Of a DNA stretch of 64,000 nucleotides, positions 1-5,258 are shown piece by piece. This stretch comes from Desulfuromonas sp. AOP6 (GTDB lineage Bacteria; Desulfobacterota; Desulfuromonadia; Desulfuromonadales; SZUA-540): NCBI RefSeq assembly GCF_009731355.2, contig NZ_AP022810.1:372001-436000 (forward strand), written 5' to 3'. The translations under genes were made by a program, and so were the position numbers. The notes beneath the pieces are model-generated. The model was given only the letters and a program-made list of their open reading frames with translations. It ran no database searches and had not been told where the DNA came from. Within the stretch, counting starts at the first letter, position 1, and every line of letters begins with the position of its first letter.

Positions 1-17
1 TGAGCGCTTGGTTAGGT
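1..17 (-). other. attC site A (partial, cut by window edge)
   Basis: Only one end is present. The core GTTAGGT at 11-17 is R'' in array orientation. Its complement ACCTAAC recurs at 280-286, the start of the same cassette, as expected for an inserted circle. Confidence 0.8.
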
Positions 18-22
18 AGCGA

Positions 23-271
23 TCAGTTCCAAAAAGGCCACCAGGGTAGTATTGCTTGCCGCCTTATTTTGACAATATCATTTGCCTGAAATGGAACTGT
101 GCCTTCGCCATTAGGGTGTGACTTCAAACCGGTAATATACCTGCCGCCTCGAACAACTACTCCACGATAAGTTCCACCAGTAGCCGTTTTTACATCGACC
201 CAGTGAATATCCATTTTCATTTCAGGACCGAGTTTGGCGCGTAAATGTTCAGGTAATTCGATCTTGTTCAT
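23..271 (-). CDS. Cassette-encoded hypothetical protein (82 aa)
   Basis: I do not recognise this protein. It is the last complete cassette gene visible in the array. The ATG lies 8 bp inside the cassette core, with only AAAGA as a possible ribosome site. The 82 residues are mixed and mostly polar, with a glycine-rich stretch (TGGTYRGVVVRGGRYITGL) and a tryptophan-rich end (PWWPFWN). The alternating hydrophobic pattern suggests a small beta-rich fold, but that is inference. There are no membrane segments. The stop lies just before the R'' core at 11-17. No function can be assigned. Confidence 0.7.
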   Translation of the reverse strand: MNKIELPEHLRAKLGPEMKMDIHWVDVKTATGGTYRGVVVRGGRYITGLKSHPNGEGTVPFQANDIVKIRRQAILPWWPFWN

Positions 272-279
272 TCTTTGCT

Positions 280-382
280 ACCTAACGGTTGAATTTAAGC
301 GGCAGGTTTGAGACCCACGCAGACCACTGAATTTTTCGAGAACCACTGCTGTCGAACTGTCCGCTTGAAATTTTGGTTAGCA
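280..382 (-). other. attC site B
   Basis: Core ACCTAAC is at 280-286 and core GTTAGCA at 376-382, 103 bp overall. Inner arms include TTAAGCGG near 295 and CCGCTT near 361. The GTTAGCA variant matches the TGCTAAC at 608-614 that starts the same cassette. Confidence 0.9.
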
Positions 383-390
383 GGCCGCCT

Positions 391-591
391 TTAAATGCGA
401 GTGAAAAGCAAGGCCATTGCAATGGAAAAACAAACTGATGCAACAATCGCCAGTATTTTGTCTTTGTTATCTAGCCTTTTTTGCATTTCTGTTGATTTAA
501 TTCCGCCCCATAAGGATGGTTTTGCCCTAATGACAATTACAAAAAGACATATGAAGGCGACCACCATGAAGGTGAACTCAACTTTTTGCAT
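391..591 (-). CDS. Cassette-encoded small membrane protein (66 aa)
   Basis: I do not recognise this protein. It has two hydrophobic segments: residues about 5-22 (FTFMVVAFICLFVIVI) and about 46-64 (ILAIVASVCFSIAMALLF). A charged loop lies between them, which fits a two-span inner-membrane hairpin. The ATG at 591 lies 16 bp from the core at 608-614. An upstream AGGA is too far away to be a good ribosome site, and an out-of-frame ATG with a 21-codon frame lies in between. Like several genes in this array it codes for a small membrane protein. Confidence 0.62.
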   Translation of the reverse strand: MQKVEFTFMVVAFICLFVIVIRAKPSLWGGIKSTEMQKRLDNKDKILAIVASVCFSIAMALLFTRI

Positions 592-607
592 TTGCTTTTC
601 ATTTTCC

Positions 608-714
608 TGCTAACGGTTTGAGATAAGCGGCGACAACGTTCCGGTTCGGCCTAGTAGAGACCTTTTCGAGAACAACCGCGCTACTTTTCGTCCGCCTTCA
701 TTTCGTGGTTAGGT
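608..714 (-). other. attC site C
   Basis: Core TGCTAAC is at 608-614 and GTTAGGT at 708-714, 107 bp in all. Inner arms GATAAGCGGCG and CGTCCGCC can pair. GTTAGGT matches ACCTAAC at 1187-1193, the start of the same cassette. Confidence 0.9.
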
Positions 715-1170
715 GGTTTGTTCAAGTTCGTCGTAAATATCTACACACCAAGTAACTTCATCGCTGAACCACCCGCCGAAAAACCAGTTTTGACCAAGGG
801 CCTGGTCTATATTCATGTCTGTGCCGTCAGACCATTTAGTGTGAGTTCTAGCGCCAGCCTTCCGCGCTTTTTGAATGGATTCGGTTGAAAGCAGTAAACC
901 ATATTGGGTCCCTATGGCAATTGCCATAATTGTCCCTGTTTTGTGATGAATGAGTGCTGGTGTTCCGTAGATTAGGCAACGAAAATCCGTTGGTAAACTC
1001 TTTCCAATTTCGTCCCAAATCCGCATCACGATGTCAGGGTGTGCACCCTGCCGCACATATGGGTTTTCAGCAGTATCGGGTGATTCGTATACGGGTGCCG
1101 CTTTTCGTTTTCCACGTGCAAGATATTTGAGAACAAGATCATTATTTTTGTTTGAATTTATGTTCTTCAT
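709..1170 (-). CDS. Cassette-encoded hypothetical protein (153 aa)
   Basis: I do not recognise this soluble protein, the largest in the array. I chose the ATG at 1170, 16 bp inside the cassette. A GTG at 1188 gives six more residues but lies inside the attC core. The first 35 residues are lysine- and asparagine-rich. The middle holds a hydrophobic strand-like stretch (IYGTPALIHHKTGTIMAIAIGTQYGLLL), followed by a tryptophan-rich, acidic C terminus. The TAA stop is formed by the R'' core of attC C, so gene and recombination site overlap by 6 bp. No function is assigned. Confidence 0.7.
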   Translation of the reverse strand: MKNINSNKNNDLVLKYLARGKRKAAPVYESPDTAENPYVRQGAHPDIVMRIWDEIGKSLPTDFRCLIYGTPALIHHKTGTIMAIAIGTQYGLLLSTESIQKARKAGARTHTKWSDGTDMNIDQALGQNWFFGGWFSDEVTWCVDIYDELEQTT

Positions 1171-1186
1171 TTTATCTATTTTTGCC

Positions 1187-1289
1187 ACCTAACGGTAGTG
1201 ATAAGCGGCGGCGACGAAGCCTGCGAGAACCACGGAACTTTTATGAGAAGCACCGCGGTTTAACCGTCCGCTTGATTTGATTGTTAGGC
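1187..1289 (-). other. attC site D
   Basis: Core ACCTAAC is at 1187-1193 and GTTAGGC at 1283-1289, 103 bp. Inner arms are GATAAGCGGCGGCGACG and CCGTCCGCTT. GTTAGGC matches GCCTAAC at 1590-1596, the start of the same cassette. Confidence 0.92.
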
Positions 1290-1583
1290 GTTGTATTTAT
1301 TTTGGTAATATTTTTCGACTTCAGCACATGCCTTAAAAAAACTTTTTGAAACGTCCCAGTCACTCACACCCTGAAGAACACCAATTCCTGAATTTGAGAT
1401 GCGTGGGAGTTCCCCTGAAATTGCCATCTCTCTTATTCCATTTAAATATTGAATTATCTTTTTACAATGTTCGGCAAGCAGATCATTTTTTGTTTTTTGA
1501 GCGGCCAGAATTTCTTTTTCAGCTTCCAAAATCGCAACATCTATTATGGAGACAAATTCTGACGTTATCTTTTCTATGTTCAT
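1284..1583 (-). CDS. Cassette-encoded hypothetical helical protein (99 aa)
   Basis: I do not recognise this protein. Residues about 1-55 are charged and heptad-like, which suggests a helical hairpin or short coiled coil. A loop follows (SGELPRISNSGIGVLQG), then an aromatic helix at the end (FFKACAEVEKYYQNKY). There is no signal peptide and no membrane span. The ATG at 1583 is 6 bp from the core and has no ribosome-binding sequence. The TAA stop lies inside the attC D core, as in two other cassettes here. Confidence 0.68.
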   Translation of the reverse strand: MNIEKITSEFVSIIDVAILEAEKEILAAQKTKNDLLAEHCKKIIQYLNGIREMAISGELPRISNSGIGVLQGVSDWDVSKSFFKACAEVEKYYQNKYNA

Positions 1584-1589
1584 TTAAAC

Positions 1590-1708
1590 GCCTAACGGTT
1601 CATGATAACCGGCGGCGACGCGAAGTTTCGGCCACCACCGCAATTTTAGATTTTGCTTTTTCGTTTAGCACAGACGTATTTTCCGTCCGGTTGATTAAGT
1701 TGTTAGGT
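1590..1708 (-). other. attC site E
   Basis: Core GCCTAAC is at 1590-1596 and GTTAGGT at 1702-1708, 119 bp, the longest in the array. Its inner arms are GATAACCGGCGGCGACG and CCGTCCGG, a variant of the AAGCGG/CCGCTT pair seen in the others. GTTAGGT matches ACCTAAC at 2033-2039. Confidence 0.9.
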
Positions 1709-2003
1709 TCGTACGCAGAATGTAAATAATAAGCGTAATCGGAAATAAGATCGTAATGAAAATGGATGAAAACGCTATGAATTTAACTTGTTGTCTGATT
1801 TTCCAAATGCATGGATCACTCTGTAAAAATGATCTGTTCTTCTTACGGAAAAAGTAGATAAATTTTTCTGGTTCCTGCTGAAATTCGAAAGCGGCCGGAA
1901 TGTCTTTTTTGGCAACTTCGGGATATTTATTTCTAAATTTATAGAACAACCGATGGCTTTGGATGAAAAGTGCTATCCAATGCAAAAGAATTAAGACAAA
2001 CAT
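1695..2003 (-). CDS. Cassette-encoded membrane protein (102 aa)
   Basis: I do not recognise this protein. The frame is open back to 2120, but that stretch lies in attC F, so I start at the ATG at 2003, which has AGGA four bases upstream. Residues 1-16 (MFVLILLHWIALFIQS) and about 78-98 (FIAFSSIFITILFPITLII) are membrane spans. Between them is a basic, aromatic loop. The frame runs through the R'' core of attC E and stops 7 bp beyond it, so its last residues come from recombination-site sequence. Confidence 0.62.
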   Translation of the reverse strand: MFVLILLHWIALFIQSHRLFYKFRNKYPEVAKKDIPAAFEFQQEPEKFIYFFRKKNRSFLQSDPCIWKIRQQVKFIAFSSIFITILFPITLIIYILRTNLTT

Positions 2004-2032
2004 TGATCCTATAAGGTTATTCAATTCTTTAA

Positions 2033-2147
2033 ACCTAACGGTCGTGATAAGCGGTGGCGACGCGAACTTGCGTGACCTGACGCTATTTGATTTTGCTTTT
2101 CGGGAAGCACCCAGCCCCATTCCATCCGCTTGATTATATTGTTAGGC
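2033..2147 (-). other. attC site F
   Basis: Core ACCTAAC is at 2033-2039 and GTTAGGC at 2141-2147, 115 bp. Inner arms are GATAAGCGGTGGCGACG and CCATCCGCTT. GTTAGGC matches GCCTAAC at 2423-2429. Confidence 0.92.
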
Positions 2148-2412
2148 CATGGATTGGAACCAGAAGAAATAGTAAGATTAATGTCGCCGCAATTGTAACT
2201 ATTGTTTTGTAATATATATTCGGAGAATATACGAGCATGACATAGGTCATGCCCCACGAAATAATTAATTTTATTATGGTGTTTAACATAAATACCGATG
2301 GAACTTCTAAAAATACCTTTTCAATGTACGTAAGGATTAAAAAGTTCACTATTAGCAGAATACACATGTAGACCTTGATTAAACATATAACTTTTCGCGA
2401 TATTTTTATCAT
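2134..2412 (-). CDS. Cassette-encoded membrane protein (92 aa)
   Basis: I do not recognise this protein. Hydropathy by eye gives three spans: about residues 8-28 (VICLIKVYMCILLIVNFLIL), 42-60 (MLNTIIKLIISWGMTYVMLV) and 68-86 (TIVTIAATLILLFLLV). The N terminus is basic. The ATG at 2412 is 10 bp from the core at 2423-2429 with no ribosome site. The frame reads through the R'' core of attC F and ends 7 bp past it. Confidence 0.62.
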   Translation of the reverse strand: MIKISRKVICLIKVYMCILLIVNFLILTYIEKVFLEVPSVFMLNTIIKLIISWGMTYVMLVYSPNIYYKTIVTIAATLILLFLLVPIHGLTI

Positions 2413-2422
2413 TATTATATTG

Positions 2423-2526
2423 GCCTAACGGTAAAGATAAGCGGCGGCGATGTAACCTGCGAGTACCACAGAACTTTTATCGAGAAGCACCGCTGTTTGC
2501 CCGTCCGCTTGATTTCTTGGTTGTAT
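2423..2526 (-). other. attC site G (degenerate outer core)
   Basis: Core GCCTAAC is at 2423-2429. The other core reads GTTGTAT at 2520-2526 instead of GTTAGGY, 104 bp overall. Inner arms AAGATAAGCGGCGGCGA and CCGTCCGCTT are intact. The odd core is matched by ATACAAC at 2697-2703, so it belongs to the cassette and is not random decay. Confidence 0.88.
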
Positions 2527-2702
2527 TGCCGTTTCTTCCTGCCAGGATCAATTCAGCAGACCCTTGGTTGATTTGCCCTTAATGCCTTTTTCCCTATTTA
2601 TATTTCAATTGAGCTGATCGTTTTCGAAGGCGCCATACATTTTCGGGAAGCTGCTCAGATCGATTTACCTAAATTGCCTCTATTTCAATTCAAGCAATAC
2701 AA
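2430..2702 (-). other. ORF-less gene cassette
   Basis: About 170 bp between attC G and attC H holds no ORF worth calling. The only minus-strand ATG I followed gives 11 codons. The stretch is AT-rich. The element still has the full architecture of a cassette: core TTGTAT at its start and a matching ATACAAC in its own attC. It may carry a small RNA or a promoter, or may be the remains of a lost gene. I see no clear promoter or terminator in it. Confidence 0.7.
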
Positions 2703-2803
2703 CGGATAAGGGTAACCGGCTGCGACGTGCCGGGACAATTTAGTAGAGGCCTATTCGGGAAGCACCCCTGTATATTCAGTCCGTGTTCACCCTGGGGTTA
2801 GCC
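2697..2803 (-). other. attC site H
   Basis: Core ATACAAC is at 2697-2703 and GTTAGCC at 2797-2803, 107 bp. Its inner sequence (GGTAACCGGCTGCGACG) differs from the AAGCGG form of its neighbours. GTTAGCC matches GGCTAAC at 3181-3187, the junction with attI. Confidence 0.88.
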
Positions 2804-3172
2804 GTCTTTTGTACTTGGAAATTTGTAACCTATTTTCGTAAATGAGAGTTTGTAGCTCAAAGGATGGGTAGGCTTTAGTACCAGGCCGCAAGAGGTACAG
2901 TTGTTCCCACGGGTACCAATCGAACCACCCCAATCAGCGCCACACTTCGGGCATGGTGCCCCTTGGTACCAGCGATGAACCCTATAGATTATTACGATAA
3001 ATACAATAAAGGACAATATGTCCGAAAAAAGGCCAAAATTGAAGATTTTTGAAATTGGCCAAGCAACTAATAGCTGATATGGGATGAATAGAAAAATTGA
3101 TGCAATCAGAATTTTCTGCCTGCGCCATATTTCGGCTTTGCCTAATTCAATGTTTTTATCTGATTGATTCAT
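2798..3172 (-). CDS. First-position cassette: membrane-anchored zinc-ribbon protein (124 aa)
   Basis: The family is not recognised. It is the cassette next to attI and so probably the latest insertion and the best expressed. Residues about 18-40 and 45-65 are two membrane spans. A cytosolic tail follows with two CxxC knuckles: CPKC at about residue 74 and CTSC at about 92, 14 residues apart, a small zinc ribbon. The final 25 residues are basic and aromatic. The ATG is 8 bp from the junction core. The TAA stop is provided by the attC H core. Confidence 0.7.
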   Translation of the reverse strand: MNQSDKNIELGKAEIWRRQKILIASIFLFIPYQLLVAWPISKIFNFGLFSDILSFIVFIVIIYRVHRWYQGAPCPKCGADWGGSIGTRGNNCTSCGLVLKPTHPLSYKLSFTKIGYKFPSTKDG

Positions 3173-3180
3173 GTTTTGGC

Positions 3181-3240
3181 GGCTAACAGGGATTAGGCGG
3201 TAACCGGTATATCGGATATGCCGGTTACCGGAATATTGCT
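3181..3240 (-). other. attI-like primary recombination site
   Basis: GGCTAAC at 3181-3187 (GTTAGCC in array orientation) is the junction between the platform and the first cassette. Next to it lies a near-perfect inverted repeat with 13-bp arms at 3198-3210 and 3218-3230 and a 7-nt loop. The only non-Watson-Crick position is one G/T. The position between the integrase start and the first cassette is that of attI. The exact integrase-binding boxes cannot be defined from one sequence. Confidence 0.65.
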
Positions 3241-3299
3241 TGAAATTTCCAGTAAATCCAGTATGTTGAAAATTAGAAAAAATTCATTGTAAATTTCAA
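3240..3299. promoter_or_regulatory. Candidate divergent promoters for integrase and cassettes
   Basis: On plus, TTGAAA (3240-3245), 16 bp, TATGTT (3262-3267) could drive the integrase. On minus, TTGAAA (3299-3294), 18 bp, TAATTT (3275-3270) could serve as the cassette promoter Pc. Both are weak and AT-rich by composition. An inverted repeat TGTTGAAA/TTTCAACA spans 3264-3301. I see no SOS-type LexA palindrome. Confidence 0.3.
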
Positions 3300-3313
3300 C
3301 ATCTGGAGGGGGT

Positions 3314-4627
3314 ATGTCTAAATCTATTGGGGGTGGTGCGTCTGAATCTCAATTCTGGCGAAACTATCAAAATATTTTGGTTCAGAAACAGGTCAATCCG
3401 CAGCATTTTCAGTGGTATGTCAAATGGTGTCAGCAGTTTACCAAATTTATTGGCGCATTGCCATTAATGGATTGCCAACCCGCACATGTCTCGGTTTTTC
3501 TCGATAACCTGAAGTCAAACAGGGATATCGAGGAGTGGCAGTATAGTCAGGCTCGTACGGCTTTGTGGTACCTGTTCCGTGATTATCTGAAGATTTCCTG
3601 GGCTGCAGATGGCCAGAGGAGTCGAGCGGTACCTCAATATCCTTCAAGACCTCCGGCTCTTTCCGAAGCCCATCAGGCAACGCTGAAGAAGCTGCGCAGC
3701 ACTCTGGTCGGCCGTCAGTATGCCAAACGCACGGTAGGTGCCTACCTGGATTGGGCGACGAGGTTTCTGGGCTACTATCCCCATCGAAAAATTGCCGATC
3801 TGGATGCCGCTGCCGTCAGGGCTTACCTGTCCGATCTGGCTGAGACGCACAACGTGGCGGTCAATACGCAGAAGCAGGCTCTCAATGCTCTGGTCTTTCT
3901 TTTTCAGGAATCGGAAAAAATTCCCTTGGGGGATTTTTCCGACTTTGCCAGAGCCAGAAAGCCCATCAAGGTGCCGGTGGTGCTCTCACGCGATGAGGTT
4001 TCGGCTTTATTGCGAGAGCTGCCCTCCCCGTTGTCTTTGATGGCCAACTTGCTCTATGGGGGTGGAATGCGTCTCATGGAGGTGATCCGCTTGCGCATCA
4101 AGGATGTGGATTTTGCGCTGGGCCAGATTGTGGTGCGCGATGGCAAGGGGCGCAAGGATCGCATCACCATGCTGCCTGAAATCTGTCTTGATCCCCTTAA
4201 GCAGCAGATTGCCGAGGCTCGCCTGATTCATGCTCAGGATCTGGACAAGAACTACGGGGAGGTTTGGCTGCCCTCGGCCCTGATAAAAAAATATCCCGGT
4301 GCCGCCCGGGACTGGCGCTGGCAGTACGTCTTTCCGGCATCGCGGATGAGCGTCGACCCCGAGAGCGGCAAGGTGAGGCGTCATCATTTTGATGAGTCGG
4401 CGGTGCAGCGCGCGGTCCGTGAGGCTGCCCGCCAGGTCGGCCTGAGCAAGACGGTGACGCCCCACACCTTGCGCCATTCCTTTGCGACCCATTTGCTTGA
4501 GTCGGGTTATGATATCCGTACGGTACAGGAGCTTTTAGGCCACGCGGATGTCGCGACGACCATGATCTATACCCATGTGCTGAGCCGGCCGGGTATCGGG
4601 GTGCGCAGCCCTTTGGACGCGGTATGA
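3314..4627 (+). CDS. intI: Integron integrase IntI with extra N-terminal domain (437 aa)
   Basis: This is a site-specific tyrosine recombinase that inserts and excises cassettes at attI and attC. The catalytic residues are visible: R253 ([13 protein letters not shown]), H384 and R387 (HTLRHSF), H410 (LLGHADV) and the nucleophile Y419 (MIYTHV). The GVRSPLD ending and the inserted patch at about residues 314-345 ([19 protein letters not shown]) mark it as an IntI rather than an XerC/D. Residues about 115-205 are the usual core-binding domain. Residues 1-110 are extra compared with the usual 320-340 aa and look like a second helical DNA-binding domain. GGAGGGGG stands just before the ATG. The gene looks intact. 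Confidence 0.95.
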
Positions 4628-4682
4628 AGCTGCTGTTTGCGACGCTTTGATGGCGAGGCCGAATCGCCGGCAAAATCCCTTT

Positions 4683-4711
4683 TTGCCAACGGCCGCGCCC
4701 TCTGGTATATT
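4683..4711 (+). promoter_or_regulatory. Sigma-70 promoter for GNAT-peptidase pair
   Basis: TTGCCA (4683-4688), 17 bp, TATATT (4706-4711), about 35 bp before the ATG at 4746. The spacing is ideal. There is no clear terminator after the integrase. Confidence 0.6.
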
Positions 4712-4745
4712 TTCTGCCTACTTCCATTTTTTCCAGAGGTTTCCC

Positions 4746-5258
4746 ATGGCTGCCGATGCTGACCAGCAAGACGACGACCTGCGTATCCGCGAGATAACCA
4801 TCGATGATTTTCCGGTGGTCTTTCATATTGGGGAAGAGTTGTTTACCTCTGATTACTCGCCCAGCATGTATCGCACCTGGGACGAGTACGAAATCACCAC
4901 CCTTTACAATTCGGACAGCGAGCTGTGCCTGGTGGCGGAATACCGGGGATTGATTCTGGGCTTTGCCCTGGGCACCACGGTGGCGAAGAGCAATTCGGCC
5001 TGGAAATACGGCTACCTGGTATGGCTGGGGGTGAAGCCGGGCATCCAGAAGGGCGGCGTAGGTTCGGCGCTATTCAAGGAGATCAAGCGGCGCATGCGCG
5101 AGCAGGGGGTGCGCATGATTATTATCGATACTGACGCCGATAACGTGGCGGGTATCCGCTTTTTTGAGAAGCAGGGTTTTGGTAATCCTCAGCAGCATGT
5201 CTACATGACCCTCAACCTTTCACGCAAGAGCAAGCGCAAGAGGATCAAACCTATATGA
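4746..5258 (+). CDS. GNAT-family N-acetyltransferase (170 aa)
   Basis: This is a predicted acetyl-CoA-dependent acyltransferase. The GNAT core is clear: a beta4 strand at about residues 85-95 (KYGYLVWLGVKPG), the pyrophosphate loop Q/R-x-x-G-x-G/A as QKGGVGSALFKEI at about 99-111, and the C-terminal strand-helix DTDADNVAGIRFFEKQGF. I start at the ATG at 4746, preceded by AGAGG, because the upstream 33 codons cover the promoter. The stop overlaps the next start as ATGA, so the two are translationally coupled. The substrate is unknown. It could be a protein or amino acid, and the coupled peptidase suggests an N-acyl compound. Confidence 0.88.
   Translation: MAADADQQDDDLRIREITIDDFPVVFHIGEELFTSDYSPSMYRTWDEYEITTLYNSDSELCLVAEYRGLILGFALGTTVAKSNSAWKYGYLVWLGVKPGIQKGGVGSALFKEIKRRMREQGVRMIIIDTDADNVAGIRFFEKQGFGNPQQHVYMTLNLSRKSKRKRIKPI

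Follow-up and report, generated by a model that had tools for sequence, protein, structure and literature searches.

The integron and its arrays

The window, that is the whole stretch of 64,000 nucleotides analysed here (G000:C1:372001-436000), belongs to the complete 3.27-Mb genome of Desulfuromonas sp. AOP6. It contains an integron integrase gene, intI (3314..4627, plus strand, 437 aa), that is transcribed away from a cassette array. The nearest relatives of the integrase come from Desulfuromonadales: a Desulfuromonadaceae MAG (79% identity) and Malonomonas rubra (71% identity). The protein has about 120 residues ahead of the Pfam N-terminal domain (residues 124-206), and many of its relatives align only from residue 107-134 onward. 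The attI side lies at 3187..3250 on the minus strand, with the recombination G at 3187; the extent of attI is approximate. The main array also lies on the minus strand and runs from attI through window position 1 to about 362.9 kb of the genome. As delimited in this genome, it consists of at least 27 cassettes.

A second array of 16 cassettes occupies 2953.8-2960.8 kb. Together the two arrays contain 43 cassettes, 28 of them distinct. No integrase was detected adjoining the second array (locus L010, G000:C1:2947001-2967000), and the genome has a single match to IntI. Thirteen distinct cassettes are common to both arrays and form blocks in a similar order, as if copied from the main one. Two cassettes, A5 (window 1193-1595) and A7 (286-613), are repeated inside the main array as A21 and A14, respectively, both located in L009, and occur again in the second array. 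A genome of the same genus, G108, encodes a 97% identical IntI next to the same attI flank, followed by different cassettes. Near the front of its array (L092, G108:C1) there is a GC-rich insert with a long ORF in it.

The first cassette (2703..3186, minus strand) contains a 124-aa ORF at 2798-3172. Its attC (2697..2803, minus strand), placed by the delimitation of the array and the attC alignment, is unlike the main attC type. It is 91% identical to an attC in G135 (L095 5187-5284), from another family, and 87% identical to an attC further down its own array.

A gene-less cassette at the second position

The second cassette after attI, A2 (2429..2702, minus strand, 274 bp), is bounded at the G^TT of two attC R' boxes. 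It starts with the core GTTGTAT (2697..2703, minus strand), the G of which belongs to the preceding attC. Its own attC in the array form (2423..2526, minus strand) extends from the R'' box ATACAAC to the R' box GTTAGGC (2423-2429), of which only the first base is not part of the next cassette. In an alignment of 25 attCs this site has the R'' and R' boxes, the GTT recombination point and the L boxes typical of the array. It scores 104 bits against the attC model R1, as expected by construction, since R1 was built from the same alignment. An earlier, sequence-only reading had placed the element at 2423-2703; the element is real, whereas the cassette proper is 2429-2702 on the minus strand. It had also described an attC with the R box GTTGTAT replacing GTTAGGC. 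That GTTGTAT, at 2520-2526 of the plus strand, is R'', and R' is GTTAGGC.

Between the matching cores lies a non-coding body of 170 bp (2527..2696, minus strand), in agreement with the roughly 170 bp devoid of a usable ORF noted earlier. The longest ORF overlapping A2 has 24 codons on either strand; an antisense gene was considered and rejected for this reason. On ORF length, A2 is gene-less in the sense of PMC11014356 (no ORF longer than 210 bp). The purine content of the body on the array strand, 0.62, is the highest among the 28 distinct cassettes.

The start of A2, GTTGTATTGC (2694-2703), and its own R'' side, GCAATACAAC, match over 10 bp. The boundaries, the attC alignment and this match bear out the earlier statement that the cassette ends are complete. 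Both ends had been said to have changed together, which is true. However, this is no special sign: taking the two arrays together, 24 of 28 distinct cassettes have ends that agree with each other at all four variable core positions (R'' was chosen as the best-matching 7-mer among about 90 positions, and a full match by chance is rare). When a start is paired with the R'' of another cassette, a full match occurs in 41 of 756 cases, and between an R'' and the start of the next cassette in none of 26 cases in the main array and none of 15 in the second. The same agreement in 61 of 63 cassettes of a wider set is not evidence, because matching ends were the criterion by which that set was selected. 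Self-pairing of 9-11 nt for most gene cassettes is described in PMC2727003. Both ends agree on folding because in the circle R' consists of the first six bases of the cassette itself. Thus the end match of A2 is far beyond chance yet general; it is textbook behaviour and matters little. Other cores of the main array include GTTAGCC, GTTATAA, GTTGGGT, GTTGTAC, GTTGTGC and more, so that GTTGTAT is one of many. Matching ends, being normal for cassettes, are therefore silent on when the core of A2 varied. The choice offered earlier, between circularisation with the variant core and birth with it, falls away, as the two alternatives do not exclude each other.

A family of gene-less cassettes and a proposed looser class

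A 293-bp ORF-less cassette in G063 starts with the same ten bases as A2. Its close relatives were found at three places in G070 and in G080, with family model scores of 82-106 bits. The resulting five-member family (L096c, L097c, L118c, L119c and L125) spans two genera (G063, G070, G080), other than that of the host of A2. L118c and L119c are situated directly at attI and both are cut by contig ends. The 17-base family word was also seen in 65 stretches of viral contigs. These are read as chance, because the family model gives at most 16 bits there compared with 103-106 bits for true members. G050:C48 scores 16.3 bits (E 0.009) with the same model.

The five members, with the self-matching 10 nt trimmed, were fixed as a yardstick. 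The similarity of a cassette to it was measured as the sum of strict local alignment scores, expressed as a z-value against shuffles. In this genome, z is high for three of the 28 distinct cassettes, B2 (5.9), A15 (4.4) and A2 (3.8, in the 100-shuffle run), and at most 1.8 for the other 25. The sense ORFs of these three are 40, 14 and 24 codons long, respectively. By the best single score rather than the summed one, A2 and the coding cassette A1 both have 2.7. The wider test covered 60 distinct cassettes, that is the 63-cassette set from 34 loci without the three yardstick members in it. Four exceed z = 3: L220 of G080 (8.2), B2 (4.5), A15 (3.7) and A2 (3.4). None of the four has a sense ORF longer than 40 codons, and the fifth-ranked cassette (z 2.8) has an ORF of 300 codons. 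On the antisense strand, 0 of 60 cassettes exceed z = 3, and the reverse complement of A2 is at background. The score of A2 was reached by 2 of 300 shuffles in one run and by 0 of 500 in another; by 2 of 600 GC-matched windows; and by 2 of 800 windows matched for both GC and purine content. A gene-less cassette from a further family, G095c of G095, found by its 3' end, has z 10.3.

A2 itself is not listed by the five-member profile (nhmmer, model R2). Against the four gene-less cassettes outside the yardstick (A15, B2, L220, G095c) its z is 2.8, reached by 3 of 500 shuffles and only slightly above the 19 coding controls compared with the same four (up to 2.5). A2 therefore is not assignable to the five-member family. 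Rather, it appears to share signs with a looser gene-less class of the order, above shuffles and weakly so when compared with the non-yardstick members. The similarity consists of short words. B2 and L220, both lacking a sense gene, match each other by BLAST in both directions (E about 1e-5), and no other genome of the 136 had a comparable match. An antisense frame of 106 codons that extends from the attC of L220 was taken for chance.

The only other of the 60 cassettes that has no sense ORF longer than 40 codons is A9 (L009 15631-15914). It seems ORF-less, but has a reversed 54-codon ORF preceded by the Shine-Dalgarno-like GGGAGG, as judged by eye. It was rejected as a member of the class, its score being unlike those of the members. 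A9 and G080:C4 (L240) have GTTGTAC cores, come from different families and were both read by eye as carrying reversed genes. They also end alike by eye, with ACCTC-CTCGAAAA shortly ahead of CCGTACAAC. Three short cassettes of L093 were likewise read by eye as reversed genes.

Shared words and the 5' layout

The gene-less cassettes contain variants of a AAAGGCAT-like word, present on the sense strand only and located about 20 nt from the cassette start. AAGGCAT or AAAGGCA occurs 11 times in the sense and 0 times in the antisense orientation in seven gene-less bodies (1332 nt), and 6 times in 28.7 kb of coding cassettes. In A2 the first copy, AGAGGCAAT (2673..2681, minus strand), lies 22 nt from the cassette start. 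A2 also has a further copy, AAAGGCATTAA (2579..2589, minus strand), and a weaker third one, AAGGGCA (2574..2580, minus strand, 8.2 bits). Just inside the core A2 has TTGAA (2689..2693, minus strand), which is also present in 5 of 9 other gene-less or hybrid cassettes and in 3 of 54 coding ones.

AGGCA at 16-34 nt from the start was found in 8 of 10 gene-less or hybrid cassettes and in 1 of 54 coding cassettes, where five of the ten are close relatives from which the signature was partly learned. For TTGAA at 7-20 nt the counts are 6 of 10 and 3 of 54; since the layout was first noticed in some of the counted cassettes and half of the ten are closely related, Fisher values overstate both contrasts. 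Taken together, the gene-less cassettes seem to share a layout in which the core, often of the GTTG type, is followed by TTGAA and then by the AAAGGCAT-like word about 20 nt in.

This layout bears on the possibility that A2 is neutral or selfish filler, in which any DNA with a good attC persists and the words merely reflect descent. The free turnover of the array, exemplified by the different cassettes of G108, agrees with it, and a selfish role is among those named for the Vibrio non-coding cassettes in PMC1382264. Plain decay, however, would not preserve words at a similar place near the 5' end and confined to the sense strand, as is seen here. We consider filler improbable.

Searches for coding remains, promoters and structured RNA

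One rival explanation is that A2 is a decayed coding cassette, whose gene was lost to stops and deletions while the attC and the ends stayed. At least one published Vibrio gene-less cassette does contain a truncated gene, according to PMC11014356. L125 agrees with the rest of the family over the 5' 130 nt and with L096c over the last 30 nt, and a deletion could convert one into the other. However, no remains were found in A2. A six-frame Pfam search with X at the stops produced one match, with E 0.97, and the translated search of the collected loci had nothing besides A2 itself (best 0.066). At the DNA level, neither BLAST nor the model matched A2 in any of the remaining 135 genomes of the order, and plasmids, phages and E. 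coli were likewise negative. A search of 395 genomes from the phylum added only 11 with matches, all of them scraps of 24-38 bases (E 0.001-0.01). The body has no DNA match in its own genome beyond itself, except for the attC, and no exact 29-mer of A2 occurs in viral contigs. Thus the refuting case named in the sequence-only reading, this DNA occurring elsewhere as what is left of a frameshifted coding cassette, was looked for at both the DNA and the translated level and did not turn up. In the relatives, a 72-nt block of four family members has changes spread evenly over the codon positions (28/36/23), against what a former gene would leave. A small coding frame in this block, open in four of five members, was rejected on the same grounds and because it is broken in the fifth, as seen by eye. 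Decay of a gene therefore looks rather unlikely, and what the comparisons suggest instead is non-coding DNA of a recurring type.

In L125 (1481-2034, G070:C71) the family 5' 130 nt and 3' 30 nt flank small ORFs of 67 and 34 codons. Either these ORFs were inserted into a gene-less cassette, or L125 represents the form from which a deletion would have produced the gene-less one. The last ORF (34 aa), searched in the order, matched only itself plus weak matches with E 0.04-0.09.

Another candidate function is that of a small regulatory RNA, as in a Xanthomonas integron cassette. The precedent, sRNA-Xcc1, is likewise a cassette with non-coding DNA; it differs in that it is reported with symE (PMC6557892, PMC12444791), and in that no structured RNA was seen in A2. 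The restriction of the common words to the sense strand would fit a transcribed strand. However, Rfam had no match in window positions 1-5000 or in the loci of five relatives. The RNA of A2 folds no better than shuffles (z +1.0 sense, +1.9 antisense), and six relatives range from -1.8 to +0.8. Covariation is scarce: in the five-row consensus, 1 of 22 pairs has changes on both sides. A structured RNA in A2 or its relatives was rejected on these grounds, and we regard a small-RNA gene as decidedly improbable.

No sigma-70-like site was found in A2 at the scan threshold; promoter prediction in gene-less cassettes was found to be unreliable, according to PMC11014356. The sequence-only suggestion of a promoter or small RNA thus has published precedent, while A2 offers no promoter site, Rfam match or structure in its favour. 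Since there is no promoter-like site and the RNA folds no better than shuffles, any function of A2 would have to be argued by analogy.

GTTG cores and stop codons

Beyond what had been noted earlier, variant GTTG cores and the absence of genes go together in this order. In the 63-cassette set a sense ORF of 60 codons is absent in 5 of 10 cassettes with GTTG cores and in 3 of 53 others (p 0.0016, with homologues counted apart). The R'' pattern RTACAAC was found across the order (136 genomes) at 19 places with at most one mismatch, of which 8 are exact; genes at the exact GTTGTAY-core sites were called by ORF and by eye. Four of the eight are gene-less (L096c, L097c, the cassette of G095, and A2) and one is the hybrid L125. 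Two have a gene read as reversed (G069:C92, G080:C4), and one has a sense gene. The last, G069:C79, has the core GTTGTAT and yet a sense ORF of 195 codons, which counts against the link. Of 55 sense ORFs, 18 end with the TAA that lies within R'', by far the commonest position, and all 18 have GTTA cores. The GTTG core may be linked to the absence of a gene because a GTTA core puts a TAA stop into R''.

Comparison with known gene-less cassettes

Non-coding cassettes of Vibrio were described in 2006 (PMC1382264) as families that recur across species. They were not regarded as pseudogenes, and the roles proposed for them were those of a promoter, an RNA or a selfish element. A2 resembles them as described there, having no ORF longer than 150 bp; the pattern expected at synonymous sites is likewise absent. 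In contrast, homologues in Vibrio are more than 80% identical over the whole length, whereas A2 shares only words and layout and its host belongs to Desulfuromonadales. Neither BLAST nor the family model found a homologue similar to A2 over its whole length, and so A2 is not part of a family in the Vibrio sense; whole-length homologues of that type were found among L096c, L097c, L118c and L119c. The case looks like the same kind of element, further diverged and in a different order.

Promoter activity of gene-less cassettes in Vibrionaceae was published in 2024 (PMC11014356). These cassettes, like A2, have no ORF longer than 70 aa and a complete attC, and may act on their neighbours. They differ in being 491-666 bp long and tested in vivo, compared with the 274 bp of A2, which is known from sequence. 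Promoter activity was also proposed for ORF-less cassettes of oral Treponema (PMC6557892). The likeness, drawn from the description, is a cassette without an ORF, and the difference is that the integrons there are reverse ones. The open-licence literature yielded no report on non-coding cassettes of Desulfuromonadales.

Discussion

We interpret A2 as an ordinary mobile gene-less cassette belonging to a loosely conserved non-coding class of Desulfuromonadales integrons, with a probability of about one half. By analogy with other integrons, the integrase would move it as a folded single strand, and its ends would agree since the R' of the circle derives from its own first bases. A GTTG core would be tolerated, as no gene requires the TAA stop that GTTA gives to R''. 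It is less certain what the cassette would do. The unstructured, purine-rich sense strand may be kept for its effect on the transcription or translation of downstream cassettes. A2 might then be a promoter or leader cassette, rather than a gene for a protein or a folded RNA, similarly to the published promoter cassettes.

A broader interpretation is an order-wide mobile non-coding class whose members share the 5' layout, favour GTTG cores and act as portable expression leaders, sometimes also as a chassis for genes. The chassis part draws on L125 of G070, read as a gene-less cassette in which small ORFs lie between the conserved 5' and 3' ends. This interpretation is speculative and we think it quite unlikely to hold as a whole. 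If the chassis reading were true, it would bear on the birth of gene cassettes.

If GTTG cores, absent genes and TAA in R'' are linked in this way, core variation has a simple reason. Comparison within the class yields elements that can be tested, the AAAGGCAT-like word and the TTGAA leader, in a situation where promoter prediction fails. Filler is the usual verdict on gene-less cassettes. Should they recur as classes outside Vibrio with a fixed layout on the sense strand, they are likely to be useful to the array.
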